Assembly (NCBI RefSeq): GCF_028649455.1
Contig: NZ_JAQSIO010000002.1
Coordinates: forward strand, 62,001-126,000
Source: Curvibacter microcysteis
GTDB taxonomy: Bacteria > Pseudomonadota > Gammaproteobacteria > Burkholderiales > Burkholderiaceae_C
Length of the DNA: 64,000 bases
Direction: 5' to 3'
Of the stretch, positions 10,849-25,808 are shown piece after piece. A model generated the notes under the pieces. It searched no databases, was not told the DNA's origin, and saw only the letters and a list, made by a program, of their open reading frames with translations. The position numbers and the translations under genes are program-made. Every line of letters begins with the position of its first letter. Position 1 is the stretch's first letter.

Positions 10849-11319
10849 TCAGAACGGGCCGTGGTGGCCGCGCTTTTGCATGAATTCGCGCACCTTCTGT
10901 TGCTGGGCGGGGTTCAGGCTGTCGTAGAAGTCACCCATGGCGGCGATCAAGGCCGGGCTTTGCTGCTGGATCTGGGTGGTTTTTTCGGTGACCAGGGCCT
11001 GGGCCTTGCTGCGGTCAAACTGGGTGCCAGCCATCAGGCCCAGCAACTGGCCGCGGGGCTGGGTGTTGCCCCCCATCAAGGCCAGGCGTTGCTGGTGCAT
11101 TTGCTCGGCCAGCGCGTTCAGGCGTTGCTTTTGCTCGGTGTTGAGGTCCAGGCGGTTGGCCACGCGCTCGACCATCTTGGCGCGGAACTCGGGCGAGCCC
11201 CGTTCGCCGTGGCCCCAGTGGCCTTCGCCGCTGTGGCTGTAGGCGCTCAGGCTGCCGGCCAGCAAGCCAGCGCCGAGCAGGCCGAACAAGACACGTTTGT
11301 TGATGAGGCGGAATTTCAT
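10849..11319 (-). CDS. Spy/CpxP-like periplasmic LTXXQ-motif protein
   Basis: 156 residues. Signal peptide of about 28 residues (KRVLFGLLGAGLLAGSLSAYS). The mature protein is helical and carries two LTXXQ-like motifs: LNTEQKQRLN near residue 60 and LNPAQQQKVREFM near residue 135. The N-terminal mature segment is His-rich (HSGEGHWGHGERG) and the C-terminus ends RGHHGPF, so metal binding is plausible. Spy and CpxP are periplasmic chaperones, and CpxP also inhibits its kinase; related CnrX/ZraP proteins bind metals. It is the first gene of a three-gene operon with the response regulator and kinase, which suggests feedback on the system. Confidence 0.85.
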   Translation of the reverse strand: MKFRLINKRVLFGLLGAGLLAGSLSAYSHSGEGHWGHGERGSPEFRAKMVERVANRLDLNTEQKQRLNALAEQMHQQRLALMGGNTQPRGQLLGLMAGTQFDRSKAQALVTEKTTQIQQQSPALIAAMGDFYDSLNPAQQQKVREFMQKRGHHGPF

Positions 11320-11418
11320 GGCAGGTCCTTCACAGACACGGGTTGAACATGGCTGTGATGGTGCCGCCCGGGGGCGCCGGCGTCCTGTCGGGCCGGTTTC
11401 GGTTTGTTTCGTTTTATG

Positions 11419-12621
11419 TCAGCCGGCCGGGGTTGGGCCGGGGGCCGGGTGGCGCAGGGTGATGGCGGTCAGCAGCGCGGCCAGGCCGGCGGCACCGGCA
11501 ATGCCCACCAGCATGGGGCGGGCGCTGCCGTCCACAAACAGGCCCACCACGGCCATCAGCACGGCGCCGGTGGCAAATTGCAGTGTGCCCATCAGGGCCG
11601 AGGCGGTGCCGGCCACGGCGCCGTGCGCGTCCAGCGCCAACACCGAGGTGGTGGGCACGACCAGGCCCAAAAAGCCATACCCAATGAACAGCAGCACCAG
11701 CATGGGGGCCAGCGCGTCGACACCGGCCAGGTTCAGCGCCAGCAGGGCGCCCATGGTCAGGGCGTAGCCGCTGACGGCCACCTTGACCACGGCCACCAGG
11801 CCAAAGCGCTGGGCCAGTCGGCCTGTGAACTGCGACACGCCGATGAAGGACGCGGCGTTGGCGGCAAAGGCGATGCTGTAGGCGCGCGGGCTCAGGCCGT
11901 AGTGGTCGATCAGCACAAAGGACGAATTGGCCAGGTAGGCAAAAAAGCTCGCAATGCCAAATGCTCCAATCATCACCAGGCCCATGAAGTGGCCGTCGCG
12001 CAGCAGGCTGCCATAGGCGCGGGCGGCGCCGCCCAGGCTGCTTTGCGCGCGCTCGGCGGGGGGGCGGGTTTCGGGCAGGCTGGTGGCGGTCAGCGCCAGG
12101 CCCAACACGGCGGCCAGGGTCACGGCCCAGAACACGCTGCGCCAGCCAGCCCATTCGATCAGCAGGCTGCCGGTCAGTGGCGCCAGGATGGGCGACACGC
12201 TGAACACCAGCATCAGCAGCGACATCAGCCGCGCCGCGTCGTGGCCGGTGTGCAGGTCGCGCACCACGGCGCGCGGGATCACCATGCCCGCGCAAGCGCC
12301 CAGGCCCTGGATGAAGCGCAGCACCACCAGGGTGTGGATGTCGGGGGCCAGCGCACAGCCCACGCTGCCCGCGCCAAACAACACCAGGCCGAAGTACAGC
12401 GGTACTTTGCGGCCCAGCATGTCCGACACCGGGCCGTAAATGATCTGGCCCAGGCCCATGGAGATGAAAAAGGCCATCAGGCTGGCCTGAACGGCGCTCA
12501 TGGAGGCACCCAGGCTCTGCCCAATGGAAGGCAGGGCGGGCAGGTACATGTCAATGGCAAACGGACCGATGGCCGACAGCAGGCCCAGCACCAGGGCGGT
12601 GCGCAAAAAAGAAGACTTCAT
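11419..12621 (-). CDS. Bcr/CflA-family multidrug efflux MFS transporter
   Basis: 400 residues with twelve hydrophobic helices. The first helix has the family hallmark FAIDMYLPALPSIGQ (D and P conserved in Bcr/CflA), and loop 2-3 has the MFS motif A as GPVSDMLGRKVPL. Motif C-like PRAVVRDLHTG lies in helix 4-5. Members export drugs such as bicyclomycin, chloramphenicol or sulphonamides, or small metabolites and cysteine, with proton antiport in the inner membrane. It stands alone between the stress-response operon and the LysR gene, all on the minus strand, with 97 bases to the next downstream start codon. Confidence 0.9.
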   Translation of the reverse strand: MKSSFLRTALVLGLLSAIGPFAIDMYLPALPSIGQSLGASMSAVQASLMAFFISMGLGQIIYGPVSDMLGRKVPLYFGLVLFGAGSVGCALAPDIHTLVVLRFIQGLGACAGMVIPRAVVRDLHTGHDAARLMSLLMLVFSVSPILAPLTGSLLIEWAGWRSVFWAVTLAAVLGLALTATSLPETRPPAERAQSSLGGAARAYGSLLRDGHFMGLVMIGAFGIASFFAYLANSSFVLIDHYGLSPRAYSIAFAANAASFIGVSQFTGRLAQRFGLVAVVKVAVSGYALTMGALLALNLAGVDALAPMLVLLFIGYGFLGLVVPTTSVLALDAHGAVAGTASALMGTLQFATGAVLMAVVGLFVDGSARPMLVGIAGAAGLAALLTAITLRHPAPGPTPAG

Positions 12622-12782
12622 TCAACAGCAGGAAAGAGGGCGGGGCAGGGCCGTTGGCCTGGTGGGCTCAGCACGCCAGCGCCACCCGGGACGCGGTGGC
12701 CCGCCAGGCCCGGCGGGGGCCGGGCAGCGGGGCAAGCGGCGCAGCATACCGCACCAGGGTTTACCCTGTGTGTCGGCCTGAT

Positions 12783-13724
12783 TTAACCCGGGTTCTGGGG
12801 GGCGGTGGCCTGCAGTTCCAGGGTGTCGGGGTCGCGCCGGTAATGGGCCAGCAAGGCCTCGACCAGGGCGCGGGCGTAGCTGGGCAGGGCTTCGGGGTCG
12901 CGCATCAGCACAAAGCGCTCGCGCACGCTCCAGGCGTCGGTCAGCTCGATCAAGGCCAGGTTCATGGCCTGCTGGTTGCGCCGCGCCGCGCTCACCGGCA
13001 CCACGCCAATGCCCACGCCCGCGCCAATCATGCGGCACATGGCGTCAAAGCTCGACAGTTGGATGCGCAAGCGCATCGGCTTGCCCAGCTTCTCGGTCAC
13101 GCCCGCCAGGAAGGTTTGCAGCGTGCTGCCGTGGTGCATGCCCACGGCGTCGTCGTCCAGGGTTTCGGCGAAGTCCACCGTGGCGCGCTGGGCCAGCCGG
13201 TGCTGGGCCGAGGTCACCAGCACCAGGCGGTCGGTGCTGAAGTGGATGGCTTGCAGGCCCAGGGTGTCGACTTGGCCGGCCACGATGCCCAGGTCGGCGC
13301 GGCCGTCGAGCACGCCGCGCGCGATCTCAGCATTCGGTTTTTCTTGAAGGTCCACGTTGACGCGCGGGTTGGCCGCCATGAAGGCGGGCAGCACCTCGGG
13401 CATGAAGTCGGTCACCGCCGTGGTGTTGGCCAGCACGCGCAGGTGGCCGCGCAGGCCGCCGCTGTACTCCTGCAGGTCGATGCGCAGCGCTTCGGTCTGG
13501 CGCAGCAGGGCGCGCGCGTGGTGCAAAAAGGCCTCGCCCGGCGGGGTCAGGCTCACGCCACGGGCCTGGCGGTAAAACAGCGGCAGGCCGGCCTGGGTCT
13601 CCAGCGCCTTGATGCGTGCGCTGGCCGCCGCCAGCGACAGGTGCTGGCTGGCGGCGGCGCGGGTCAGGTTCAGCGCCTCGGCGGTTTGCACAAAGAGGCG
13701 CAGGTCGGTGAGGTCGAACTGCAT
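12783..13724 (-). CDS. LysR-type regulator of the adjacent itaconate-type cluster (inferred)
   Basis: 313 residues. The N-terminal winged helix-turn-helix covers residues 4-62 (LRLFVQTAEALNLTRAAASQHLSLAAASARIKALE is the typical LysR pattern). The rest is a two-lobed effector domain with strands such as GHLRVLANTTAVTDFMPEVLP. It is divergent from the Bug gene at 13876, with 151 bases between the two start codons. LysR proteins usually control the divergent operon and repress themselves. In P. aeruginosa a LysR gene also flanks the itaconate genes, which supports regulation by itaconate or its CoA ester; this is inference. I could not pick out a convincing T-N11-A box in the gap. Confidence 0.88.
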   Translation of the reverse strand: MQFDLTDLRLFVQTAEALNLTRAAASQHLSLAAASARIKALETQAGLPLFYRQARGVSLTPPGEAFLHHARALLRQTEALRIDLQEYSGGLRGHLRVLANTTAVTDFMPEVLPAFMAANPRVNVDLQEKPNAEIARGVLDGRADLGIVAGQVDTLGLQAIHFSTDRLVLVTSAQHRLAQRATVDFAETLDDDAVGMHHGSTLQTFLAGVTEKLGKPMRLRIQLSSFDAMCRMIGAGVGIGVVPVSAARRNQQAMNLALIELTDAWSVRERFVLMRDPEALPSYARALVEALLAHYRRDPDTLELQATAPQNPG

Positions 13725-13875
13725 GGGCGGATGCTAGCCCAAGCCGGCGGGGCCGGGGGCTTGAGGGTTTTGTTTTTCTGAAGGCTTGGTCTTGAAATGC
13801 GTGATTGCGCAGCGGCCCGGGCGCGGCCACCATGCAGGGCTGAATCGACCAAGAACAAGCGCTGGAGACAAGCCC

Positions 13876-14925
13876 ATGCAAGCCCGCACCATTGCCCGCC
13901 AGGCCCTCAAGGCCTCCCACGCCCCATCCCGCTGGCCGCGCCGCCTCGTGTTGGCCGGTCTGAGCCTTTGGGCCAGCCTGACCCTGGCGCCCGCCGCGGC
14001 CCAAAGCCCCAGCTACCCCAGCCGCCCCATCGTGATGGTGGTGCCGCAAACGGCGGGCGGCACCAACGACATCGTGGGCCGCCTGGTCAGCCAAAAGCTG
14101 GGCGAGGTGCTGGGTGCGGCCAGCGTGGTGGTGGACAACCGCCCCGGCGCGGGCGGCAACATCGGCACCCAGCTGGTGGCCAAGGCACCCAAGGACGGCT
14201 ACACCCTCTTGATGACCATCAGCAGCAGCCAGGCCATCAACCCCGCGCTGTACAAGAACGCAGGCTTTGATCCGGTCAAGGACTTCCGCCCCATCAGCCT
14301 GATTGGCGCCGTGCCCAATGTGCTGTTGGTCAACCCGAGCTTTCAGGCCCGCACCGTGGCCGAGTTGCTGAGCTTGGCCAAGGCGCAGCCGGGCAAGCTG
14401 CAATACGCCTCGGCGGGCAATGGCACGCTCAACCACCTGCTGGGCGAAATGCTCAACAGCATGGCCGGCATCGAGCTGCAGCATGTGCCCTACAAAGGCG
14501 TGGCCCCGGCCATGAACGATGTGCTGGGCGGCCAGCTGCCCATGCTGTTTGCCAGCCTGCCGTCTGCGCTGGCCAACATCCGCGCCGGCAAGCTGCGCGC
14601 CCTGGCCGTCAGCGGCCCCAGCCGCTCGCCTGTGCTGCCCGAGGTGCCGACCCTGGGTGAGTCGGTGCCGGGCTACAGCGGCACGCTGTGGATCGGTCTG
14701 TTTGCCCCAGCCGGCGTGCCGGCGGACGTGGCCACCCGGTTGCAAGACGGCATGGCGCGCGCGCTGGCCAGCAAAGACCTGCGCGACAAGCTGGAGCAGC
14801 AAGGCGTGGAGCTGGCCAGCAGCCCCGACAAACCCGCCGGCCCCGAGGCCCTGGCCGCGCTGCTACAAGACGACCTGGCCAAGTGGGCACGCATCGTCAA
14901 GTCTTCCGGCGCCTCGGTGGACTGA
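13876..14925 (+). CDS. Bug/TctC solute-binding protein, first gene of the itaconate-type cluster
   Basis: 349 residues from the ATG at 13876 (a GGAG site precedes it). Signal peptide of about 40 residues with hydrophobic LVLAGLSLWASLTLAP and an AAA-Q cleavage site. The ligand loop is VPQTAGGTNDIVGRLV, and the second ligand segment is VDNRPGAGGNIGTQLVA, both standard for Bug proteins. Being first in a catabolic cluster it probably binds the substrate (itaconate or another C5 dicarboxylate) in the periplasm. In the P. aeruginosa cluster this place is taken by a TRAP-type system. No tctA/tctB genes are present in the window, so the translocating partner is unknown. Confidence 0.9.
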   Translation: MQARTIARQALKASHAPSRWPRRLVLAGLSLWASLTLAPAAAQSPSYPSRPIVMVVPQTAGGTNDIVGRLVSQKLGEVLGAASVVVDNRPGAGGNIGTQLVAKAPKDGYTLLMTISSSQAINPALYKNAGFDPVKDFRPISLIGAVPNVLLVNPSFQARTVAELLSLAKAQPGKLQYASAGNGTLNHLLGEMLNSMAGIELQHVPYKGVAPAMNDVLGGQLPMLFASLPSALANIRAGKLRALAVSGPSRSPVLPEVPTLGESVPGYSGTLWIGLFAPAGVPADVATRLQDGMARALASKDLRDKLEQQGVELASSPDKPAGPEALAALLQDDLAKWARIVKSSGASVD

Positions 14926-15032
14926 GCCGCGCCGGGCCGGGCCGGGCCTGGCGCTGCGCCTGGTCCGCTGGCCCAGGGGCGCCACGCGCTGCCTTTTTCT
15001 CATTCTTCAATTCACTTCCTCTCGCACCCGAC

Positions 15033-15920
15033 ATGACCGAAGAACTCCGCACCATCGATGCCGCCTTGCTGGCGCACCTGCAAACCTGGCAAGGCCGCGA
15101 GGAGACCTGGCACGACCAATTGGGCGCCACCCCCGTGAGCGCCTTGTCGGCCACGTTGGACCGGGACGACCCCGCGCCCGTCACCGGCCAAACCGAACTG
15201 CCGCCGCTGTGGCACTGGCTGTACTTTTTGCCCCAGGTCCGACAAAGCGGTTTGGGTCCGGACGGCCACGCGCTGCGCGGTGGCTTTCTGCCCCCGGTGC
15301 CGCTGCCGCGCCGCATGTGGGCGGGCGGGCGTCTGCGCTGGGAAGAGGGCAATCCGCTGAGCGTGGGGCAGGCTGTGCGCCGCACTTCGCGCATCGAGTC
15401 GGTCACCCACAAGGCCGGCCGCACCGGCGACCTGGTGTTTGTGCTGGTCAAGCACGAAGTCCACAACGATCACGGCCTGGCCCTGACCGAGGAGCACGAC
15501 ATCGTCTACCGTGCCGCGCCCCAGCCCGGCGACCCGGTGCCCCCGCCGGTGGCGGCCGAGGCGGGCGCGGCCTGGCAACGCGAGATCGTGCCGGACGACG
15601 TGCTGCTGTTCCGCTACTCGGCCTTGACCTTCAACGGCCACCGCATCCACTACGACCGCCGCTATGTCACCCAGGTCGAGGGCTACCCGGGCCTGATCGT
15701 GCACGGCCCGCTGATCGCCACTTTGCTGGTCGATCTGCTGCGCCGCGAGCAGCCGCAGGCGCGGCTCAAGTCCTTTGCCTTCAAGGCCGTGCGACCCACC
15801 TTTGATCTGCACCCCTTCCGCGTCCAGGGCACGCCCAGTGCGGACGGCCGCAGCGCGCGCCTGTGGGCCAGCGACCACGAAGGCTGGCTGACCATGCAGG
15901 CCACGGCCGAGTTGTTCTGA
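15033..15920 (+). CDS. ich: MaoC-like itaconyl-CoA/mesaconyl-CoA hydratase
   Basis: 295 residues, a double-hotdog protein. The N-terminal half is a FAS1-dehydratase-like hotdog (residues 20-165, with LPPLWHWLYFLPQ and GGFLPPVPLPRRMW). The C-terminal hotdog carries the hydratase signature FNGHRIHYDRRYVTQVEGYPGLIVHGPL (residues 200-227, H203, H206 and D208 region, then HG at 224-225). Length and order match mesaconyl-C4-CoA hydratase and the itaconyl-CoA hydratase Ich of P. aeruginosa, which turns itaconyl-CoA into citramalyl-CoA. The cluster context (CoA-transferase and CitE-type lyase) favours Ich. There is no Shine-Dalgarno before the ATG; instead a pyrimidine-rich tract lies at 14991-15028. 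Confidence 0.82.
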   Translation: MTEELRTIDAALLAHLQTWQGREETWHDQLGATPVSALSATLDRDDPAPVTGQTELPPLWHWLYFLPQVRQSGLGPDGHALRGGFLPPVPLPRRMWAGGRLRWEEGNPLSVGQAVRRTSRIESVTHKAGRTGDLVFVLVKHEVHNDHGLALTEEHDIVYRAAPQPGDPVPPPVAAEAGAAWQREIVPDDVLLFRYSALTFNGHRIHYDRRYVTQVEGYPGLIVHGPLIATLLVDLLRREQPQARLKSFAFKAVRPTFDLHPFRVQGTPSADGRSARLWASDHEGWLTMQATAELF

Positions 15921-15997
15921 GCGCCGCGCCATCGGCCTGCCTGCCTGTTTTCTTTCTTCTTTCTTCTTCTTTCATCCCCGAGCCGGACCTCTTCACC

Positions 15998-17161
15998 ATG
16001 ATCAAGCAAGCCCCCGACCAGTACCAGGAAATCCGCGATGCGGTGCGTGCCCTGTGCGCTCAGTTCCCGGACGAGTACCACCGCCAGATCGACCACGAGC
16101 GCGCCTACCCGGAGGCCTTTGTCGATGCCCTCACCCAAGCCGGCTGGCTGGCCGCCCTGATCCCGGCCGAGTACGGCGGCTCGGGCCTGGGCCTGGCCGA
16201 GGCTTCGGTGATCATGGAAGAGATCAACCGCAGCGGCGGCAACTCGGGGGCCTGCCATGGCCAGATGTACAACATGGGCACCTTGCTGCGCCATGGCTCG
16301 CAGGCGCAAAAAGAGCTGTACCTGCCCAAGATCGCCAGCGGCGAATGGCGTCTGCAGTCCATGGGCGTGACCGAGCCCACCACGGGCACGGACACCACCA
16401 AGATCAAGACCACCGCCGTGAAGAAGGGCGACCGCTATGTGATCAATGGCCAGAAGGTGTGGATCAGCCGGGTGCAGCACAGCGAGTGGATGATCTTGCT
16501 GGCGCGCACCACGCCGCTGGCCGAGGTCAGCAAGAAGAGCGAGGGCATGTCGATCTTCATGGTGGACCTGCGCGAGGCCGAGAAGTCGGGCATGGTGGTG
16601 CGCCCGATCCAGAACATGGTCAACCACGAGACCAATGAGTTGTTCTTCGACAACCTGGAGATCCCGGCCGAGAACCTGATCGGCCAGGAGGGCCAGGGCT
16701 TCAAGTACATCCTTGACGGGCTGAATGCCGAGCGCACGCTGATCGCGGCGGAGTGCATTGGCGACGGCTACTGGTTCCTGGACCGGGTCACCAAGTACGT
16801 CAGCGAGCGGGTGGTGTTTGGCCGGCCGATTGGCCAGAACCAGGGGGTTCAGTTCCCGATTGCGGACGCCTACATCGAGGTGGAAGCAGCCAACCTGATG
16901 CGCTACAAGGCCTGTGAGTTGTTCGACGCCAACCAGCCGTGCGGGGCCCAGGCCAACATGGCCAAGTACCTGGCGGCCAAGGCGAGCTGGGAGGCGGCGA
17001 ATGCGTGCATCCAGTTCCATGGGGGCTTTGGGTTCGCGCATGAATACGACGTGGAGCGCAAGTTCCGCGAAACGCGTCTGTACCAGGTGGCGCCGATTTC
17101 GACCAACTTGATTTATTCCTATGTGGCCGAGCATTTGCTGGGGCTGCCGCGGTCGTTTTGA
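15998..17161 (+). CDS. Acyl-CoA dehydrogenase of the itaconate-type cluster
   Basis: 387 residues from the ATG at 15998. FAD/substrate motifs are present: EYGGSGLGL (59-66), GVTEPTTGTDTT (123-134), and the C-terminal AANACIQFHGGFGFAHEYDVER. The position of the usual catalytic glutamate in the YEGT motif of medium-chain enzymes reads VAPISTN, so that residue is missing. However, E245 in LDGLNAERTL sits where isovaleryl-CoA dehydrogenase has its catalytic Glu254, so activity through that position is plausible. An acyl-CoA dehydrogenase gene also lies in the P. aeruginosa itaconate cluster, with no settled role as far as I know; methylsuccinyl-CoA would be a logical substrate. A pyrimidine tract (15946-15977) and no clear Shine-Dalgarno precede it. 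Confidence 0.88.
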   Translation: MIKQAPDQYQEIRDAVRALCAQFPDEYHRQIDHERAYPEAFVDALTQAGWLAALIPAEYGGSGLGLAEASVIMEEINRSGGNSGACHGQMYNMGTLLRHGSQAQKELYLPKIASGEWRLQSMGVTEPTTGTDTTKIKTTAVKKGDRYVINGQKVWISRVQHSEWMILLARTTPLAEVSKKSEGMSIFMVDLREAEKSGMVVRPIQNMVNHETNELFFDNLEIPAENLIGQEGQGFKYILDGLNAERTLIAAECIGDGYWFLDRVTKYVSERVVFGRPIGQNQGVQFPIADAYIEVEAANLMRYKACELFDANQPCGAQANMAKYLAAKASWEAANACIQFHGGFGFAHEYDVERKFRETRLYQVAPISTNLIYSYVAEHLLGLPRSF

Positions 17162-17189
17162 GTTTTGTCGTGGCAACTGTGGTGATTCG

Positions 17190-17862
17190 CCCTTCGCTTC
17201 GCTCTGTGGTTGAGGTGTTTCTGCTGAGGGCGGAGGCCGGGAGTGCGCCCCGGCAGGCGCCTCACTTTCTTTGCTTCGCCAAAGAAAGTAAGCCAAGAAA
17301 GGCGACCCGAAGTCAGGGCCGCTGCGCGGTTCCCTGCGCTGCTCACACCAGGGGGGGCCCCGCGAAACTCGCTTCGCTCAAACAGTCGCGGGTCCTGATC
17401 CCCCTGGTGCTGCGCTGCTCGGCCCTGCCCCACGGGACAAGCGGGATCGGACGGGCTCACCACCGCACTGCAGAAAACCTTTGGGATGGGGCGGTTGACC
17501 TTGGCGCGCCAATCAAGCCAGCGCCTGGCCATGTCGGTCCCGTGCGTCGCACAACCCTGCCAGGCGCCGCTGCGCAGCAGCAGGCGTTGGGGCCCGTGTT
17601 CGACCTCCCGTGTCACCCGGCGAGCAGCGCAGGCCGGGGCGGAAAAAGGGCTCGCGACTGTTTGAGCGAAGCGAGTTTCGCGAGACCCCGCCCTGGCCGA
17701 GCAGCGCAGCGGACCCTGCGCAGCAGGGCGGGTGAGTCGGGTCGCTTTTCTTTGCTTACTTTCTTTGGCGAGACAAAGAAAGTGAGTCGGCCGCCGGGCC
17801 GAGATCCCGGCCTCCGCCCTCAACCAGGGCACCGCCCGTTCAGAGCGAAGCGAAGGGCACAC
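17190..17862. repeat. Long imperfect inverted repeat between two catabolic genes
   Basis: Left arm about 17190-17400, right arm about 17655-17862, spacer about 255 bp. Matching blocks include CCCTTCGCTTCGCTCTG, GAGGGCGGAGGCCGGGA, GCGAAACTCGCTTCGCTCAA plus ACAGTCGCG, and AAGAAAGTAAGC. Each arm holds its own small palindrome, ACTTTCTTTG - 6 nt - CAAAGAAAGT, at 17264-17289 and 17759-17784. Open frames of about 255 codons exist on both strands and translate to near-identical openings because of the symmetry; they are not genes. Similar CTTTCTTTG-type intergenic elements are common in Comamonadaceae genomes (from memory). The transcript could fold into a very long hairpin separating the upstream and downstream genes. 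Confidence 0.9.
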
Positions 17863-17921
17863 CAAGCCACCAAAAACAACCATCCCCTTCAGGTCCCCAA
17901 CCTTTTCAGTGAGTCCACACC

Positions 17922-19106
17922 ATGACCACCCGCCCCCTCGACGGCATCACCGTCATCTCGCTTGAACACGCCATCGCCGCCCCTTTCTGCACCCGCCAAC
18001 TGGCCGACCTTGGCGCCCGCGTCATCAAGATCGAACGCCCTGGCGCCGGTGACTTCGCACGCGCCTACGACCAGCGCGTCAACGGCGAGGCCTCGCACTT
18101 TGTCTGGGTCAACCGCTCCAAGGAAAGCCTCACCCTCGACCTCAAACAGCCCGCCGCCCTGCAAGTGCTCCAGCAGCTGCTGCAAGACGCCGACGTGCTG
18201 GTGCAAAACCTGGCGCCCGGCGCCGCCGCCCGCATGGGCCTGGGCTACGAACAGCTCAAGGACCGCCACCCGAAACTCGTGGTCTGCGACATCTCCGGCT
18301 ACGGCGACGACGGCCCCTACCGCGACAAGAAGGCCTACGACCTGCTGATCCAAAGCGAGGCCGGCTTCCTGTCGGTCACCGGCACGCCCGAGGACCCCTG
18401 CAAAGCTGGCAATTCCGTGGCCGACATCGCCGCCGGCATGTACGCCTACACCAGCGTGCTCGCCGCCCTGCTGCAACGCGGCAAGACCGGGCGCGGCGGC
18501 CACATCGACGTGTCCATGCTCGAAGCCCTGGGCGAGTGGATGGGCTACCCCATGTACTACGCCTTTGACGGCGCCACCCCACCGCCGCGCAGCGCTGCGG
18601 CCCACGCCACCATTTACCCCTATGGCCCCTTCAAGGCGGGCGACGGCGGCACCGTCATGCTGGGCCTGCAAAACGAACGCGAATGGAAGCTGTTTTGCGA
18701 GCATGTGCTGCTCGCGCCCGAGCTGGCCGTGGACCCGCGCTTTGACAGCAACGCCCGCCGCAACCAGCACCGCGACACCCTCAAGGCCCTGATCCTGGAC
18801 ACGTTTGGCGCCCTCAGCAGCGCCGAGGTGCTGGCCCGCCTGGACCAGGCCCAGATCGCCAACGCCCGCATGAACGACATGGCCGGCCTGTGGGCCCACC
18901 CGCAGTTGCAGGCGCGCGAGCGCTGGCGCCAGGTGGGTTCGCCCGTCGGCCCCATCCCGGCCCTGCTGCCGCCAGGCCGACACAGCAGCTTTGACTACCG
19001 CATGGACCCGGTGCCCACCGTGGGGCAACACACCGAAGCGATCCTGCACAGCCTGGGCCGCAGCGCCGCCGACATCGCCGCCCTGCGCGCCCAGGGCGCG
19101 GTCTGA
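17922..19106 (+). CDS. ict: CaiB/BaiF family CoA-transferase, probable itaconate CoA-transferase
   Basis: 394 residues, class III (formyl-CoA-transferase type) CoA-transferase. Starts LDGITVISLEHAIAAPFCTRQLADLGARVIKIERP, the family's CoA-binding opening. The catalytic aspartate is D140 in KAYDLLIQSEAG, and the conserved SGYGDDGPY motif precedes it. The GRGGHIDVSMLEA segment is also intact. Such enzymes move CoA from a donor such as succinyl-CoA to a carboxylic acid. Between an Ich-type hydratase and a CitE-type lyase the substrate is most likely itaconate (or mesaconate/methylsuccinate). In P. aeruginosa the corresponding gene is ict. The preceding inverted repeat means it may need its own promoter. 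Confidence 0.85.
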   Translation: MTTRPLDGITVISLEHAIAAPFCTRQLADLGARVIKIERPGAGDFARAYDQRVNGEASHFVWVNRSKESLTLDLKQPAALQVLQQLLQDADVLVQNLAPGAAARMGLGYEQLKDRHPKLVVCDISGYGDDGPYRDKKAYDLLIQSEAGFLSVTGTPEDPCKAGNSVADIAAGMYAYTSVLAALLQRGKTGRGGHIDVSMLEALGEWMGYPMYYAFDGATPPPRSAAAHATIYPYGPFKAGDGGTVMLGLQNEREWKLFCEHVLLAPELAVDPRFDSNARRNQHRDTLKALILDTFGALSSAEVLARLDQAQIANARMNDMAGLWAHPQLQARERWRQVGSPVGPIPALLPPGRHSSFDYRMDPVPTVGQHTEAILHSLGRSAADIAALRAQGAV

Positions 19107-19168
19107 GCGGCCCCCGCCGCGCCCCGCGCCCATCCCCCATCCCCAACAACGACGGAGACCGATTCACC

Positions 19169-20566
19169 ATGCTGACCCCCACCGCCACCCTGGCGCGCTT
19201 TGCCGCCGAGCTGCGCTATGAACACATCCCCGAGGCCGTGCTGCGCAAGACCGAAGACCTGCTGGTCGACTGGTTCGGTTCGGCCGTGGCCGGCCATGGC
19301 GCGCGCCCGGTGGAAAGCATCACCCGCTTTGCCGCGCAGATGATGGGCGGGCCCGCCGCTCACGCTGCCGCGCTGGGCCAGGGCGGGGCCGAGGTGCTGG
19401 TCTCGCGGCAACGCGCCAGCGCCTATCTGGCCGCCATGGCCAACGCCGCTGCCTCGCATGTGGCCGAGCAGGACGATGTGCACAACGGCTCGGTGTTCCA
19501 CCCGGCCACCGTGGTGTTCCCGCCCGCCGTGGCCGTGGCCCAGGCGCTGGGGCGCAGCGGGCAGGACCTGCTGGCGGCTTCGGTGGTGGGCTACGAGGTG
19601 GGCATCCGCGTGGGCGAATTTCTGGGGCGCTCGCACTACAAGGTGTTCCACACCACGGGCACCGTCGGCACCTTGGCCGCGGCCGCGGCCGTGGGCCATT
19701 TGCTGCGCCTGGACGCGGCGCAGATGCAGCACGCGCTGGGCTCGGCCGGCACCCAGGCCGCCGGGCTGTGGGAGTTCCTGCGCACCGCGGCCGATTCCAA
19801 GCAGCTGCACACCGCGCACGCGGCGGCCGCGGGCTTGATGTCGGCCTACCTGGCGCAGGATGGCTTCACCGGCGCGGCGGAGATCTTGGCCGGCCCGCAA
19901 GGCATGGCCGCCGGCATGTCCAGCGATGCGGACGCCACGCGCCTGACGGATGGCCTGGGCACGCGCTGGGCCACGGTGGAGACCTCGTTCAAATACCACG
20001 CCAGCTGCCGCCACACCCACCCGGCCGCCGACGCGTTGCTGCAGGTGATGCGCGAGCACGGCCTGAAGCCCGCCGACCTGCAAAGCGTCGAGACCCAGGT
20101 GCACCAGGGCGCCCTCGACGTGCTGGGCCCGGTCACCTCGCCGAGCACGGTGCACCAGAGCAAGTTCTCCATGGGCACGGTGCTGGCCCTGGTGGCGCAG
20201 TACGGCCATGCCGGCCTGACCGAGTTTGACCAGCACTTCCTCAGCGAGGCGACGCGCGCCCTGCGCGACCGCGTCAGCATGCGCCTGGACCCCGAGGTGG
20301 ACGGCGCCTACCCGCGCCGCTGGATTGGCAAGGTCACGGTCCACACCACCGATGGCCGCGTGCTGCACGGCCGCGTCGACGAACCCAAGGGCGACCCGGG
20401 CAACACCTTGAGCCGCGACGAAGTCACCGCCAAGGCCCTGCGCCTGGCCGCCTTCAGCCAGGGCGCCACCGCGGCCGAGATGCAGCAGGCGGTGGACGCC
20501 CTGTGGCAGGTGGCGCAGTGGCCCGTGGTCGGCGCTTTGCTGCCCAGCCAGGTGGGCGCGGCATGA
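19169..20566 (+). CDS. MmgE/PrpD-family protein of the itaconate-type cluster
   Basis: 465 residues, the usual size for the family. The N-terminal all-helical domain shows LLVDWFGSAVAGHG, ANAAASHVAEQDD-x-HNGSVFHPATVVFP and VGYEVGIRVGEFLG; the conserved H and D residues in the ASHVAEQDDVH segment line the active site. The C-terminal domain includes FKYHASCRHTHPAADALL and the KFSMGTVLAL segment. Family members include 2-methylcitrate dehydratase PrpD and cis-aconitate decarboxylase, which makes itaconate. The homologue in the P. aeruginosa itaconate cluster has, to my knowledge, no proven reaction. Its stop overlaps the next start as ATGA. Confidence 0.88.
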   Translation: MLTPTATLARFAAELRYEHIPEAVLRKTEDLLVDWFGSAVAGHGARPVESITRFAAQMMGGPAAHAAALGQGGAEVLVSRQRASAYLAAMANAAASHVAEQDDVHNGSVFHPATVVFPPAVAVAQALGRSGQDLLAASVVGYEVGIRVGEFLGRSHYKVFHTTGTVGTLAAAAAVGHLLRLDAAQMQHALGSAGTQAAGLWEFLRTAADSKQLHTAHAAAAGLMSAYLAQDGFTGAAEILAGPQGMAAGMSSDADATRLTDGLGTRWATVETSFKYHASCRHTHPAADALLQVMREHGLKPADLQSVETQVHQGALDVLGPVTSPSTVHQSKFSMGTVLALVAQYGHAGLTEFDQHFLSEATRALRDRVSMRLDPEVDGAYPRRWIGKVTVHTTDGRVLHGRVDEPKGDPGNTLSRDEVTAKALRLAAFSQGATAAEMQQAVDALWQVAQWPVVGALLPSQVGAA

Positions 20567-21447
20567 GCGAAGCCCCGGCTGTGAACGCCGCCGACGCGCC
20601 CCTGGCCCGGGCGCGCAGCTTCTTGTTCGTGCCCGCCGACCGGCTGGAGCGACTGCCCAAGGCGCTGGCCAGTGGGGCCGATGCGGTCATCGTGGACCTC
20701 GAGGACGCGGTGGCCCCCGCGGCCAAGGCGGGCGCCCGTGGGGCGCTGGCGTCGGCCTGGGGCGGGCTGGACGCGGCCCAGCGGGCCCGCCTGGTGCTGC
20801 GCGTCAACGCGGCGCCCACACCCTGGCACGCAGACGACCTGGCCTTGCTGGCGCAGCTGCCCGGTTTGGCGGGTGTCATGCTCGCCAAGGCCGAGTCGGC
20901 GGCCGCCCTGAGCACCGTGGCCGCCGCCGCGCCGGGCCTGGCCCTGCTGCCCCTGATCGAAAGCGCAGACGGCTTGCTGAACCTGAGCGCCATCGCCGCC
21001 GCGCCCCAGGTGCTGCGCCTGGTGCTGGGCCACATGGATTTGCAGGCCGATCTGGGCATGGCCTGCAGCCCGGACGAACACGAGCTGCTGCCCGCGCGCT
21101 GGCAACTGGTGCTGGTGTCGCGCGGGGCCCGCCTGGCGCCGCCCGTGGACGGCGTGACCGTCGCGCTGGACCAGCCCGAGCTGACCGAGGCCGACACCCG
21201 GCGCTGCCGCCGCCTGGGCTTTGGCGCCAAGCTGTGCATCCACCCGGCCCAGGTCCAGGCCGTGCACCGGGGCTTCTGCCCCAGCGGCGAGGAACTGGCC
21301 TGGGCCCAGCGCGTACTGGCGGCGGCTCAAGCCGCGGGCGACGGCCCAGGCGCCGGGGCGCTGCGCGTGGACGGCCGCATGGTCGACGCCCCCGTGCTGG
21401 CGCTGGCGCGCCGACTGCAAAGCCTGGCGGGCGCAGCCCCGCCCTGA
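20563..21447 (+). CDS. ccl: HpcH/HpaI-CitE family lyase, probable citramalyl-CoA lyase
   Basis: 294 residues, TIM-barrel CoA-ester lyase. Opening RSFLFVPADRLERLPKAL is the CitE signature; the metal/acid motif VDLEDAV holds D45, E47 and D48; the LVLRVNAAPT strand carries the CoA/keto-acid binding arginine; the lid region ends FGAKLCIHPAQVQAVHRGF, the family C-terminal signature. Citramalyl-CoA lyase cleaves citramalyl-CoA to acetyl-CoA and pyruvate, the last step of itaconate breakdown. The ATG overlaps the preceding stop (ATGA), indicating translational coupling to the MmgE/PrpD gene. Beta-methylmalyl-CoA or malyl-CoA lyase are alternatives. Confidence 0.85.
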   Translation: MSEAPAVNAADAPLARARSFLFVPADRLERLPKALASGADAVIVDLEDAVAPAAKAGARGALASAWGGLDAAQRARLVLRVNAAPTPWHADDLALLAQLPGLAGVMLAKAESAAALSTVAAAAPGLALLPLIESADGLLNLSAIAAAPQVLRLVLGHMDLQADLGMACSPDEHELLPARWQLVLVSRGARLAPPVDGVTVALDQPELTEADTRRCRRLGFGAKLCIHPAQVQAVHRGFCPSGEELAWAQRVLAAAQAAGDGPGAGALRVDGRMVDAPVLALARRLQSLAGAAPP

Positions 21448-21712
21448 GCCACCGCCCAACCTGACCCGTGGCGCACTGCCCCATGAAGCCCGCCTTCCGT
21501 CTGCCTCCTTGGAGCGGCCCCGCCACGCTAGGGAATGTGCCAAGTGCAATGCCCGCCCAAGCTGCGCACCATGGGCCCTGGAGAGGGGAGTGCGCCTTGG
21601 GCCGCGGCGCCGCAGCAGCCCAACACCGGGCCCAGGCACAACGTCATCCCACAAAGCCTGGTCTGGTTTGAAAAACGAAACCTGAAACCCTACAACCCGA
21701 AAGAGACAAAGC

Positions 21713-22699
21713 ATGACCTCCCTCAAAACCCTGAAGCGCCTTGCCTTGGGCACCCTGGCTGCCGCCTGCCTGTTGGGCACGGCCCAGGCCCAGACCTTCC
21801 CCGACAAGCCCATCACCATGCTGGTGCCCTTTGCCGCTGGGGGGCCCACCGACGTGGTGGCGCGCATGATTGCCATCCCCATGGGCAAGGCCTTGGGCCA
21901 GACCGTGCTGGTCGAAAACGCCGCCGGGGCAGGGGGCACCATCGCGGCCACCAAGACCGCGCGCTCGGCGCCCAATGGCTACACCATCTTCCTGCACCAC
22001 ATGGGCATGTCCACGGCGCCAGCGCTGTACAAGAAGCTCACCTTTGATCCGCTCAAGGACTTCGATTACATCGGTCAGGTGGTTGACGTGCCCATGACCC
22101 TGCTGGCGCGCAAGGACCTGCCGGCCAACACCCTGCCCGAGCTGCTCAGCTACATCAAGGCCAACCGCGAGAAGGTCACCCTGGCCAATGCCGGCCTGGG
22201 GGCGGTGTCCCACCTGTGTGGCCTGCTGTTCATGAGCGCCATCGACACCGACCTCAACACCATCCCCTACAAGGGCACGGGCCCGGCCATGAACGACTTG
22301 CTGGGCGGCCAGGTCGACCTGCTGTGCGACCAGACCACGCAGACCGTGCCCATGATCAAGGAAGGCCGCGTCAAGGTCTTTGGTGTCACCACGCTCAAGC
22401 GCCTGGGCGCGCTGCCCAATGTGCCCACGCTGGATGAGCAAGGCCTCAAGGGCTTTGAGGTCAAGGTCTGGCACGGCATGTACGCGCCCAAGGGCACGCC
22501 GCCTGAGGTGCTCAAGCAGCTCAACGCCGCGCTGCGCACCGCCCTGGCCGACCCGGCCGTGGTCAAGCGCCTGAACGAGCTGAGCTCGGACGTGCCGCCG
22601 CAAGACAAGATCACGCCCGAAGGTCTGCGCACCCACCTGGAGGCCGAGATCAACAAATGGGGTCCGGTGATCCGAAAGGCCGGGATTTACGCAGACTGA
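21713..22699 (+). CDS. Bug/TctC solute-binding protein
   Basis: 328 residues. Signal peptide with RLALGTLAAACLLGTAQA, cleavage near residue 26. Ligand loop LVPFAAGGPTDVVARM and second loop ENAAGAGGTIAATKTA. The LGGQVDLLCDQTTQTVPMIKEG segment with its cysteine is typical of the subgroup. It follows the citramalyl-CoA lyase gene after 265 bases that hold no gene, and ends at a strong terminator, so it may be the last gene of the itaconate-type cluster or a separate unit. A carboxylate ligand is expected; its identity is unknown. Confidence 0.9.
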   Translation: MTSLKTLKRLALGTLAAACLLGTAQAQTFPDKPITMLVPFAAGGPTDVVARMIAIPMGKALGQTVLVENAAGAGGTIAATKTARSAPNGYTIFLHHMGMSTAPALYKKLTFDPLKDFDYIGQVVDVPMTLLARKDLPANTLPELLSYIKANREKVTLANAGLGAVSHLCGLLFMSAIDTDLNTIPYKGTGPAMNDLLGGQVDLLCDQTTQTVPMIKEGRVKVFGVTTLKRLGALPNVPTLDEQGLKGFEVKVWHGMYAPKGTPPEVLKQLNAALRTALADPAVVKRLNELSSDVPPQDKITPEGLRTHLEAEINKWGPVIRKAGIYAD

Positions 22700-22741
22700 A
22701 GCCCGTCTCCTGGCCCGCCTTTGACGCGGGCCCAGCGCCCA

Positions 22742-22781
22742 CAAAAAGGGCGCCACCTTTTGGGGGTGGCGCCTTTTTTTT
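22742..22781 (+). terminator. Rho-independent terminator between convergent Bug genes
   Basis: GGCGCCACC (22749-22757) pairs with GGTGGCGCC (22765-22773), followed by eight T; A-rich bases on the left side extend the stem, so it should also stop the opposite operon ending at 22800. Confidence 0.92.
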
Positions 22782-22799
22782 GGGTGGGCTGCTGGGGGA

Positions 22800-23858
22800 C
22801 TATTCGATGCGGATCCCCGCTGCCTTGACCACCTGGCCGTAGCGGGCCAGGTCGCGCCGGATTTCATCGCGGAACTGGTCGGCGCTGCCCGGTGTGGCTT
22901 CGATGCCCATGGCGATCAGTTTTTCGCGCACGGCGGGGTCGTTGAGCACGGCGTTGAGCTCAGTGTTCAGCCGGGCCAGCACGGCTGGCGGTGTCTTGGC
23001 CGGGGCCAGCAGGCCGACCCAGGAATTGACCACGAAGTCGCTGACCCCGCTCTCGATGAAGGTGGGCACATCGGGCAGCGCCGCCGAGCGCTGGGCACTG
23101 GACACCGCGATCGCGCGCAGCTTGCCCGACTTGACGTGGCCCGAGGCCCCCGCCACCGCGGTGTAGACCAGCGGAATGCTGCCGCCCAGCACATCGCTCA
23201 TGGCCTGGCCGCCGCCCTTGTAGGGGATGTGGGTGAGCTGCGCGCCGGTGCGCTGGCGCAGCAACTCGCCGCCAATGTGCGGCGTGCCGCCCGTGCCCGA
23301 GGTGCCGTAGGACAGGCCGTCGGCCTGGCCCTTGGACAGCGCAATCACCTCGCCCAGGGTCTTGGCGGGCACGCCCGGGTGGGCCACCAGGATGAGCACG
23401 GCGTCGCCGATCTTGCCCACGGGCGCCAGGTCCTTGAGGGTGTCAAAAGGCACTTTGGCAAACACATGGGGGTTGATGACCAGGGTGCCGTCAAAGCCCA
23501 GCACCAGGGTGTAGCCGTCGGGCGCCGCGGTGGCCACGGCGGCGGTGCCGATGTTGCCCGAGGCGCCGGGCCGGTTGTCCACGATCACCGACTGGCCCAG
23601 GCGCCGGCCCAGCTGTTCGGCGATCAGGCGGCCGCTGGTGTCGGTCACGCCGCCGGGCGTGAAGGGCACGACCAGCCGGATCGGGCGGTTGGGCCAGGCG
23701 TCCTGGGCCTGGGCGGGGCGCAGCGCGCTCAGGCCCGCCAGGGCCGTCAGCAGGGCCAGGCCTGTGGTGAGCAGGCGGCCGCGCCGTGTCAGGCGTCCGA
23801 CAGCGCTGCCTGGGGCGTGGGCACGCAGGGCGTGCCCCGGGTCGCGTGGGGGGGTCAT
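22800..23858 (-). CDS. Bug/TctC solute-binding protein, third gene of the sigma-54 operon
   Basis: 352 residues from the ATG at 23858, which has a clean AGGAGA site; the longer frame to 23894 overlaps the neighbour's end and is not needed. The N-terminus has a long basic leader then a hydrophobic stretch (LLTTGLALLTALAGLSAL) and an AQA cleavage site. Ligand loops VVPFTPGGVTDTSGRLI and VDNRPGASGNIGTAAVA are typical. It follows the isocitrate-lyase-family gene by 32 bases and probably shares its promoter. It is the second binding protein in the same operon, so the two may differ in ligand or one may be a sensor subunit. Confidence 0.9.
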   Translation of the reverse strand: MTPPRDPGHALRAHAPGSAVGRLTRRGRLLTTGLALLTALAGLSALRPAQAQDAWPNRPIRLVVPFTPGGVTDTSGRLIAEQLGRRLGQSVIVDNRPGASGNIGTAAVATAAPDGYTLVLGFDGTLVINPHVFAKVPFDTLKDLAPVGKIGDAVLILVAHPGVPAKTLGEVIALSKGQADGLSYGTSGTGGTPHIGGELLRQRTGAQLTHIPYKGGGQAMSDVLGGSIPLVYTAVAGASGHVKSGKLRAIAVSSAQRSAALPDVPTFIESGVSDFVVNSWVGLLAPAKTPPAVLARLNTELNAVLNDPAVREKLIAMGIEATPGSADQFRDEIRRDLARYGQVVKAAGIRIE

Positions 23859-23890
23859 GCTTTGTCTCCTGTTGTTGGGGTCGCGCCGGT

Positions 23891-24763
23891 TCACTCGGTC
23901 TCAGCGTAGCGCTTGTCGAAGTCCCAGACCTCCTGGAAACCCATGAGCTGGGTCAGCTCGCTGAAGGCCAGCAGGGGCGTGGGCACCTGGGTGGACGAGC
24001 CCTGGTCGCGCAGGGCCTGGTAGACGCTTTTCATGGCGGCCGTGGCGGCCAGCAGCGAGGTGACCGGGAAGATCGCCAGCTTGTAGCCAATGGCCTCCAG
24101 CTCGGCCTGGCTCAGCACGGGGGTGCGGCCCCCTTCGACCATGTTGGCCAGCAGGGGCTGGTCAAAGCTGCGGCCGATCTGGCGCATCTCGTCCACGCTC
24201 TCGGGCGACTCGACAAACAGGATGTCGGCCCCGGCCTTGGCGTAGGCCTCGGCGCGGCGCAGCGCCTCGTCCAGGCCCAGCGCGCTGCGCGCGTCGGTGC
24301 GGGCAATGATCAAAAAGTCTTCGGATCGGCGCGACTCGGCCGCCACCTGGATCTTGCGCACCATGTCCGCCGTGGGGATGACGCGGCGACCCGGCGTGTG
24401 ACCGCATTTTTTGGGGAATTCCTGGTCTTCAAGCTGGATGGCGGCCGCCCCCGCTGCCTCGTAGCCGCGCACCGTGTGGCGCACATTGAGCAGGCCGCCG
24501 TAGCCGGTGTCGCCGTCGGCGATCAGGGGGGTGCGCGCCATGCCCGCCATGGCGGTGACGCGGCCCAGCATGTCCGAATAGGTGGCCAGGCCCGCGTCGG
24601 GCAGGCCGGTCAGCGAGGCCACGCTGCCAAAGCCGGTCATGTACAGCGCGTCAAAGCCAAAGGTGTCGGCCAGGCGCAGCGAGACCATGTCGTGCACGCC
24701 GGGCGCGATCACCAGGCCGGGTTGTTGCAGGCGCTGGCGCAGCTTGGGGGAAGTGGTGCTCAT
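23891..24763 (-). CDS. Isocitrate lyase/PEP mutase superfamily lyase
   Basis: 290 residues, TIM barrel. Metal and catalytic motifs are intact: ADGDTGYGG (82-90, D83 and D85), QLEDQEFPKKCGH (110-122, with E112, D113 and catalytic C120 in the KKCGH loop), and IARTDAR. The cysteine loop indicates a lyase of the 2-methylisocitrate/isocitrate/2,3-dimethylmalate lyase group, not a PEP mutase. Products would be pyruvate or glyoxylate plus a dicarboxylate. No prpC, prpD/acnD or prpF lies next to it, although a PrpR-like activator gene lies upstream, so I leave the substrate open and do not call it prpB. Middle gene of a three-gene minus-strand operon. Confidence 0.87.
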   Translation of the reverse strand: MSTTSPKLRQRLQQPGLVIAPGVHDMVSLRLADTFGFDALYMTGFGSVASLTGLPDAGLATYSDMLGRVTAMAGMARTPLIADGDTGYGGLLNVRHTVRGYEAAGAAAIQLEDQEFPKKCGHTPGRRVIPTADMVRKIQVAAESRRSEDFLIIARTDARSALGLDEALRRAEAYAKAGADILFVESPESVDEMRQIGRSFDQPLLANMVEGGRTPVLSQAELEAIGYKLAIFPVTSLLAATAAMKSVYQALRDQGSSTQVPTPLLAFSELTQLMGFQEVWDFDKRYAETE

Positions 24764-24827: not shown

Positions 24828-25808
24828 TCACTCGGGCTGGATGCCGCCTTGCTGGGCCACGCGGGCCCACTTGCTTTGCTCCTGCTGCAGGAACTTGGCG
24901 AATTCAGCCGGCGGGGTCAGGACCACTTTGGCGCCCTGGTCGTTCATCTGGCGCTGCAGGGCGGGCTCGCTGGTGACCTTCTTCAGGTCTTCATTGATCT
25001 GGCTGACCAGTTCGGGGCTCAGGCCGGCCGGGCCAAACAGGCCGTACCAGCTCAGGGACTCGACCTGGGGCAGGCCCGCTTCGCGGAAGGTCATGGCGTC
25101 GGGGAAGATGGCCAGGCGCTCGGCCGCCGCCACCCCGATCACACGCAGCTTGCCCGACTGCACATGGGGCAGGGCGGTCAGCACGCTGGTGACGCCCATG
25201 GGCAGGTGGCCGCCAATGATGTCCACCATGATGGGCGCGCCGCCTTTGTAGGGCACACCCTCGGTCTTGAGGCCGCCGGCCTGGCGCATCAGCTCGCCGG
25301 TGAGCCGGGTCTGGCCCTCGGAGTAGCCCACGCCCAGGGGCTCTTTGCGCGCCACGGCCAGCAGCTCGTTCAAGGTTTTGTAAGGCCCCTGGGCCGACAC
25401 CACCAGCACCATGGGCGAGTCGGCCAGTCGGGTGACCGGGGTGAAGGCGCGGCCCGTGTCGTAGGGCAGCGACTTCATCAAGACCGGGTTGATGGCGTGT
25501 GAGCCCACCACCATCAGCAGGCTGTAGCCGTCGGGCGCGGCCTTGGCCACGTAGGCCGAGCCGATCACGCCATTGGCCCCGGTGCGGTTGTCCACCACCA
25601 CCGACACACCCCAGAGCTCGGACAGGCGCTGCGCCACGGTGCGCGCCACGATGTCGGTGCCGCCGCCAGGTGAGTAGGGCACCACGATGGTCACCGGCTT
25701 GTTGCCGGGCCAGCGAGCCGCGTTGCCCTGGGCGTGCAGCAGGGGGCTGGCCAGACCGGCCGCCAGGGCCAGGCCCAGCGCGCGCCGCGTGGGGTGAAAA
25801 ACAGTCAT
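24828..25808 (-). CDS. Bug/TctC solute-binding protein, first gene of the sigma-54 operon
   Basis: 326 residues. Signal peptide RRALGLALAAGLASPLLHAQG, cleavage near residue 27. Ligand loop VVPYSPGGGTDIVARTVAQ and VDNRTGANGVIGSAYVA are complete. It starts 40 bases downstream of a near-consensus sigma-54 promoter (25848-25863, minus strand), so its expression should depend on the PrpR-like activator encoded divergently. It is followed by the lyase gene after 64 bases. A role in uptake or sensing of the lyase substrate, or its precursor, is inferred. Confidence 0.9.
   Translation of the reverse strand: MTVFHPTRRALGLALAAGLASPLLHAQGNAARWPGNKPVTIVVPYSPGGGTDIVARTVAQRLSELWGVSVVVDNRTGANGVIGSAYVAKAAPDGYSLLMVVGSHAINPVLMKSLPYDTGRAFTPVTRLADSPMVLVVSAQGPYKTLNELLAVARKEPLGVGYSEGQTRLTGELMRQAGGLKTEGVPYKGGAPIMVDIIGGHLPMGVTSVLTALPHVQSGKLRVIGVAAAERLAIFPDAMTFREAGLPQVESLSWYGLFGPAGLSPELVSQINEDLKKVTSEPALQRQMNDQGAKVVLTPPAEFAKFLQQEQSKWARVAQQGGIQPE

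Follow-up and report, generated by a model that had tools for sequence, protein, structure and literature searches.

A probable itaconate and methylsuccinate degradation operon, with a large palindromic repeat between mcd and ict, in a Curvibacter-like betaproteobacterium

The window analyzed here, a stretch of 64,000 nucleotides (nt) from the 4.8 Mb genome of Curvibacter microcysteis (contig NZ_JAQSIO010000002.1, positions 62,001 to 126,000), contains at 12783-21447 genes for a LysR-type regulator, a Bug (TctC-family) periplasmic binding protein, a hydratase, an acyl-CoA dehydrogenase, a class III CoA-transferase, an MmgE/PrpD-family protein and a CitE-type lyase. These genes very probably represent an operon for the degradation of itaconate and methylsuccinate of the type described in Pseudomonas aeruginosa and Cupriavidus necator. 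This identification is directly supported by the gene content, the orthology of the gene products, the active-site residues of the MmgE/PrpD protein (Msi) and an operator-like motif in relatives. A preliminary description, made from the sequence, had noted the same gene families together, and the open reading frame list, translations and Pfam scans confirmed that all of the named genes are intact open frames. The hydratase gene it called "MaoC-like" is present, with the correction that the Pfam match is to FAS1_DH_region (PF13452). In addition, the cluster extends past 21447 to a second Bug gene (21713-22699), giving the following features:

12783-13724, minus strand: LysR-type regulator (PF00126/PF03466; its counterpart in the P. 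aeruginosa cluster, also divergent, is 54.6% identical)
13761-13812, plus strand: putative LysR operator/promoter (alignment of 24 intergenic regions; right arm from 13778)
13876-14925, plus strand: Bug1, TctC-family periplasmic binding protein, 5' of ich (PF03401)
15033-15920, plus strand: ich, predicted itaconyl-CoA / mesaconyl-C4-CoA hydratase (FAS1_DH_region, PF13452; PDB 8khg/8huc, 255/252 bits)
15998-17161, plus strand: mcd, predicted methylsuccinyl-C4-CoA dehydrogenase (79% to the P. aeruginosa dehydrogenase)
17189-17858, no strand: imperfect palindromic repeat of ~670 bp in the mcd/ict gap (inverted arms, RNA fold)
17922-19106, plus strand: ict, predicted succinyl-CoA:itaconate/(R)-methylsuccinate CoA-transferase, class III (PF02515; 70% to P. 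aeruginosa Ict)
19169-20566, plus strand: msi, predicted (S)-(R)-methylsuccinate isomerase, MmgE/PrpD family (PF03972/PF19305; 60.6% to P. aeruginosa Msi)
20563-21447, plus strand: ccl, predicted (S)-citramalyl-CoA lyase, CitE-like (PDB 9nzb/8khl, 202/201 bits; 50.4% to P. aeruginosa Ccl)
21713-22699, plus strand: Bug2, second TctC-family binding protein, beyond the range of the preliminary description (PF03401)

The start of ccl overlaps the msi stop codon (20563 versus 20566). The Bug1 open reading frame opens at a TTG at 13786, with the ATG at 13876 being the likelier start.

Sequence comparisons bore out the link that the preliminary description had drawn to the itaconate cluster of P. aeruginosa. 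Our P. aeruginosa reference was locus L047 (loci, genomes and contigs are given L, G and C numbers), a plasmid record of strain 2014S05-249, whose gene order and products, rather than PAO1 locus tags, were the basis for equating it with PA0876-PA0886. The six non-Bug proteins of the window were 50-79% identical to their counterparts in L047 by BLASTP (LysR 54.6, Ich 49.8, Mcd 79.0, Ict 70.0, Msi 60.6, and Ccl 50.4%). The Ich of L047 is identical to PDB 8khg ("itaconyl-CoA hydratase") and its Ccl is one residue off PDB 8khl/9nzb, and the closest solved structures for the window Ich (255 bits) and Ccl (201-202 bits) are the P. aeruginosa enzymes. Reciprocal searches with the five P. aeruginosa enzymes returned the window genes as the best of the own-genome copies compared. 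The Msi query had a single match at E<=1e-10, the window msi (562 bits), and the Mcd query had 20 matches, the best of which was the window mcd at 79%, followed by matches of 33-34%. The Ict, Ich and Ccl queries also preferred the window genes among the own-genome copies compared, the comparison being less complete for Ccl, whose own-genome paralogue was found via the RipC model. Six paralogues of the window Ict (30-40%) and one of Ich (31%) were identified in the host genome. At C1:240645-242626 (L182), a distant paralogue of Ict (30%) adjoins one of Ich (31%), with a Bug homologue nearby; these represent a different CoA-transferase/hydratase pair.

The arrangement of the cluster is conserved. 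All five enzyme genes are on one strand in 41 of 106 loci, and they have the order ich-mcd-ict-msi-ccl on one strand in 37 (both counts include the window), while many of the remaining loci end at contig edges or are without one gene.

Functions of the individual enzymes were assigned from the C. necator and P. aeruginosa proteins assayed by Gonner et al. 2025 (PMC12290011), a source cited here and below from part of its text. That study identified the dehydrogenase as an (RS)-methylsuccinyl-C4-CoA dehydrogenase and the MmgE/PrpD protein as an (S)-(R)-methylsuccinate isomerase. The "unsettled role" that the preliminary description gave to these two genes has therefore been superseded, as both act on methylsuccinate, and on the basis of these known roles we interpret the window genes as an itaconate/methylsuccinate cluster. 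Every reaction assigned here is by analogy with the published enzymes: Ict would activate itaconate or (R)-methylsuccinate with the CoA of succinyl-CoA, Msi would convert (S)-methylsuccinate to (R)-methylsuccinate, Mcd would oxidize methylsuccinyl-C4-CoA to mesaconyl-C4-CoA, Ich would form (S)-citramalyl-CoA from itaconyl-CoA or mesaconyl-C4-CoA, and Ccl would cleave (S)-citramalyl-CoA to acetyl-CoA and pyruvate.

Msi is known from 1767 species, 69.9% of them Betaproteobacteria and 36.4% with the gene in clusters of all five genes (PMC12290011). The active site proposed in the same study comprises, in P. aeruginosa numbering, the acid-base pair His102/Tyr148 together with H88, E91, H152, K202 and K266. 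All seven residues are kept in the window Msi, in which H97, E100, H111, Y157, H161, K211 and K275 correspond to H88, E91, H102, Y148, H152, K202 and K266 at a constant offset of 9. The 562 bits noted above for Msi came from a search with P. aeruginosa Msi as the single query sequence, which is a different measure from the published hidden Markov model threshold of at least 550 bits (PMC12290011). Of the 80 named GTDB loci that were retained, that of Curvibacter gracilis had the closest Msi (86%). In a separate observation, sixteen Polynucleobacter-type loci (L096, L102-L105, L111, L114-L116, L119, L123-L125, L130, L131 and L147) had the arrangement ich-msi-ccl-bug2 without mcd or ict in between, with ccl undetected in L102. 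These loci depart from the statement, in the part of PMC12290011 cited, that msi always adjoins mcd. We considered these clusters as a sign of another role for Msi; however, this idea was weakened because an Mcd of 80-82% was present outside the fetched locus in all eleven of the Polynucleobacter-type genomes searched.

The LysR-type regulator is probably itaconate-responsive and would drive the divergent operon. Based on its position and identity, we presume the protein to be ItcR-like, ItcR being the itaconate-responsive regulator of the biosensor literature. For the operator analysis, 24 LysR-operon intergenic gaps were aligned, which produced the dyad consensus AGCCTTCGGnAAnnCnGAAGGCT, then TTGAAAT and GATTGCGC, some letters being present in only 60% of rows. 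The motif TTC-N9-GAA was found in 17 of the 24 gaps, whereas 200 single-base shuffles gave 0.6 on average; the 17 are not independent events, because the rows are related. The motif is present in the LysR-ich gap of P. aeruginosa as it is in many relatives of the window. The operator region of the window retains the right half, GAAGGC, and TTGAAAT..GATTGCGC downstream of it. Behind the LysR gene, and on the same strand, is an MFS transporter gene (11419-12621), homologues of which (E<=1e-20) were present in only two of the 105 other cluster loci, both from Curvibacter (L053, 81%; L054, 76%).

The two Bug proteins are 36% identical to one another and may bind itaconate or methylsuccinate; in the proposed mechanism, they would capture a C5-dicarboxylate in the periplasm for a TctAB permease that is probably coded elsewhere. 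Their distribution was determined in 93 loci (the window being one) whose Msi exceeded 60%. A Bug2 homologue (>=57%) was found in 47 of these loci and a Bug1 homologue (>=65%) in 7, the window among them, all 7 having both Bugs; some of the 46 loci without Bug2 end at contig edges. These counts indicated that Bug2, and not Bug1, is the more widely kept partner of the cluster. The preliminary description was correct that a Bug gene is in front of the enzymes, but the wider-kept Bug is downstream of them. In Cupriavidus campinensis a 67% Bug2 homologue adjoins mcd. The replacement of TRAP genes by a Bug gene, which had been presented as a difference, is not new, as a TTT binding-protein gene adjoins the C. 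necator cluster (PMC12290011), with which the C. campinensis arrangement agrees. Further minus-strand Bug genes at 22800-23894 and 24828-25808 flank a gene of the PEP-mutase/isocitrate-lyase family (23891-24763).

The preliminary description also stated that there is no dioxygenase/glyoxalase-like gene, which is true of the cluster but not of the genome, as contig C8 codes for a homologue (59-60%) of the VOC protein of the P. aeruginosa cluster (PA0880-like). A possible second operon on C8 (L190 5819-10193, ~89.8-94.2 kb) consists of genes for a MarR regulator, a class III CoA-transferase, an HMGL-like lyase, a VOC protein (59% to the P. aeruginosa one) and a Bug protein, and we speculate that it could be a route for 2-hydroxyparaconate/itatartarate. 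In Paracidovorax wautersii a VOC protein with 60% identity to that of the P. aeruginosa cluster is encoded directly 3' of the Bug2 homologue (L100 13046-13441).

Several results weigh against the identification of the cluster as an itaconate and methylsuccinate operon. The window does not match the exact TTC-N9-GAA motif, its left half being degenerate, and the same exact motif is missing from C. gracilis (L053) and five other gaps. No TctA, TctB or TRAP permease was found among the flanking genes scanned, and the Bug genes are not adjoined by TctA or TctB as they would be in a complete TctABC system; the two TctA genes of the host genome are both elsewhere, on contigs C3 and C9. The window Ccl scored 137-138 bits against the NCBIfam RipC_Ccl model (NF038242), whose cut-off is 375 bits. 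We dropped this cut-off as a test of Ccl, as the P. aeruginosa Ccl, used as a control, also fell short (158 of 375 bits), and the shortfall of the window Ccl is uninformative for the same reason. NF038242 probably models the Yersinia-type RipC.

The remaining contrary evidence came from the hydratase. A tree was built for Ich alone of the six proteins (97 rows, IQ-TREE, bootstrap incompletely settled), and in it the window Ich grouped with the cluster hydratases of C. gracilis, Simplicispira and Curvibacter, within a 65-row clade (support 99/96) in which every member has msi within 7 kb. The sister of this clade, however, is a 9-row clade (100/99) in which six rows are near an adenylosuccinate-lyase-family gene, the other three being two 3.8-kb loci and a 19-kb locus without such a gene. 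The clade of the window Ich does not include the hydratases of P. aeruginosa, of Marinobacter or of five further loci with both Mcd and Msi (L048, L050, L052, L112 and L117), such that the hydratases of Mcd plus Msi clusters do not form one clade. Several of the outside hydratases are on long branches and the placement of P. aeruginosa Ich is uncertain. A second Ich homologue of C. necator, beside an adenylosuccinate-lyase-family gene, was thought by Gonner et al. to serve another pathway (PMC12290011). The preliminary description had named trees that group the hydratase with non-itaconate enzymes as a refutation, and the Ich tree does not cleanly clear this condition. The tree is the one result against a plain reading of the window Ich as the same enzyme as PA0878; nevertheless, we argue for the same function, given the genes around ich and the four remaining enzymes.

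That Ich is placed next to hydratases linked to adenylosuccinate lyase, and apart from P. aeruginosa Ich, would fit a cluster that serves a related dicarboxylate (e.g., mesaconate, citramalate or a longer branched acid) with itaconate as a side substrate. Itaconate need not be the main substrate, because the Ict of C. necator is sevenfold more efficient on (R)-methylsuccinate than on itaconate (PMC12290011). However, Ict and Mcd are 70% and 79% identical to the P. aeruginosa enzymes, the window Ict is nearer to P. aeruginosa Ict than is the assayed C. necator enzyme (60% to PA0882, PMC12290011), and all seven active-site residues of Msi are kept. Based on these data we consider a different principal substrate to be quite unlikely.

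The mcd/ict junction of the window is unusual in that 17189-17858 is one imperfect palindrome, whose arms include 122 nt at 81% and 69 nt at 83% as well as shorter ones. As RNA, the palindrome has a predicted minimum free energy of -496 kcal/mol (z -26.9, 20 shuffles). No recognised gene was found at 17162-17921. A 255-residue open reading frame at 17158-17925 was rejected as a gene because it has no Pfam/NCBIfam match and its DNA is one palindrome. Rfam searches of 11000-23000 found nothing at gathering score, and a promoter and terminator scan of the region was not above shuffles.

Related sequences are dispersed. The host genome has at least one further copy (C1:591662-592273; L148 6664-7273), 92-97% alike by direct segment, which sits between two genes that we judged from sequence to be of the RND-efflux type, and long palindrome copies in G305 and G304 likewise adjoin an RND-type gene. 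Matches to the palindrome at E<=1e-10 were found in 21 of 60 genomes, the host included, and two genomes of the same genus have at least 29 and at least 31 matching pieces. In the same-genus genome G301 the match (C5:305360-306022) has genes for an Mcd of 97% and an Ict of 90% in its flanks (L150), and the mcd of C. gracilis (G345) is at C5:306180-307340; G301 is therefore probably C. gracilis, and the host of the window probably belongs to the same GTDB genus. Ten of the 105 fetched cluster loci, among which there may be near-duplicates, carry a homologue of the element at E<=1e-8 (L053, L072, L073, L079, L081, L085, L088, L098, L127 and L129), and in all ten the element is directly upstream of ict. 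The mcd gene is visible across the element in six of these carriers, and in four the contig ends first (L072, L081, L085 and L129). A palindrome scan identified large palindromes in the window, in the host copy L148 and in five carriers (L053, L085, L088, L098 and L127); in the other five the element is known by homology and the scan gave no large palindrome. The scan also revealed a large palindrome upstream of msi, close to a contig end, in L065 and, in L064 and L076, small ones of ~80 nt in the ict/msi gap. Besides the window, 59 loci have mcd and ict on the same strand and no more than 2 kb apart; the two genes are separated by 60 nt or less in 39 of them, and the element is present in 6.

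Together, these data indicated that the palindrome is a member of a dispersed family of repeats, which either persisted at the mcd/ict junction or came back to it. The 3' flank of the window copy resembles those in L053 and L072, and part of the recurrence is therefore explained by shared descent. The carriers present on the Ich tree are in three separate places, and either one old insertion was repeatedly lost or the junction is a preferred site. A RAYT-type transposase was considered as the mobiliser of the palindrome, and there was one Y1_Tnp match (27.5 bits, cut-off 23). A limited literature search found no clear description of this palindromic repeat family; the betaproteobacterial repeat element (BRE) is about 90 bp (PMC3110155, cited from part of the text).

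Alternatively, the palindrome might have split the cluster functionally, with ich-mcd and ict-msi-ccl-bug2 no longer one working operon and the pathway weak or lost. The predicted hairpin in the mcd/ict gap, which is very strong, and the degenerate operator half-site are consistent with such a split, as is the result that no sigma-70-like consensus was found between mcd and ict, although the scan was weak and found none in the entire region either. We regard it as very improbable, since the frames are intact on both sides of the palindrome and other genera have homologous elements at this junction and retain both flanking genes. It is also unlikely that the palindrome is a working intercistronic element, in which a giant RNA hairpin would be cut, or would terminate part of the transcripts, so that ict, which codes for the entry enzyme, and the isomerase gene are expressed apart from ich-mcd, and whose junction would have been kept across the Comamonadaceae because its position matters, beyond descent or insertion preference. 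A chance neighborhood of unrelated acyl-CoA metabolism genes, for which the large size of most of the gene families might speak, has virtually no credibility and is refuted by the gene set and order kept in 37 of 106 loci and the high identity to characterized relatives.

As an itaconate and methylsuccinate operon, the window cluster resembles P. aeruginosa PA0876-PA0886 (ich-mcd-VOC-msi-ict-ccl, IctPQM) in having a LysR gene divergent to ich and the five enzymes (50-79%). It differs in that msi and ict are swapped in order, the VOC gene is not in the cluster, the palindrome is between mcd and ict, and two Bug genes are present where P. aeruginosa has the genes of IctPQM, the linked TRAP system by which uptake occurs in that species (PMC12599236, cited from part of the text). 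C. necator (E6A55_22575-22600) has, from its description in PMC12290011, the same five enzyme families with a gene for a TTT-type binding protein close by, and the cited part of that description calls the function of its Bug-type gene unknown. The clusters of the Comamonadaceae C. gracilis (L053), OTU4NAUVB1 (L041) and Variovorax CF079 (L126) largely have the layout of the window. In the C. gracilis cluster, LysR, the five enzymes and Bug2 are 76-97% identical to those of the window; the palindrome is present but Bug1 is not. In OTU4NAUVB1 msi sits behind Bug2. By contrast, Yersinia pestis RipABC has the same net pathway but is convergent, with enzymes that are non-homologous or distant (PMC12290011), and the window Ccl is far under the cut-off of the RipC model.

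The overall interpretation in the preliminary description was partly supported. The cluster is a real, complete and conserved operon, and one more example of an already described cluster type. Little was gained for the proposed link to macrophages or fungi, because methylsuccinate is an equally good reason for having the cluster. A literature search for Curvibacter and itaconate found no paper with both terms in its title or abstract, and the window extends the itaconate/methylsuccinate cluster to a Curvibacter-like organism. The cluster leaves a small question in the repeated occurrence of a large palindrome at the same operon junction, and the two-Bug layout of some Comamonadaceae raises a question of transport, namely which Bug works with which TctAB, and whether for itaconate or methylsuccinate.

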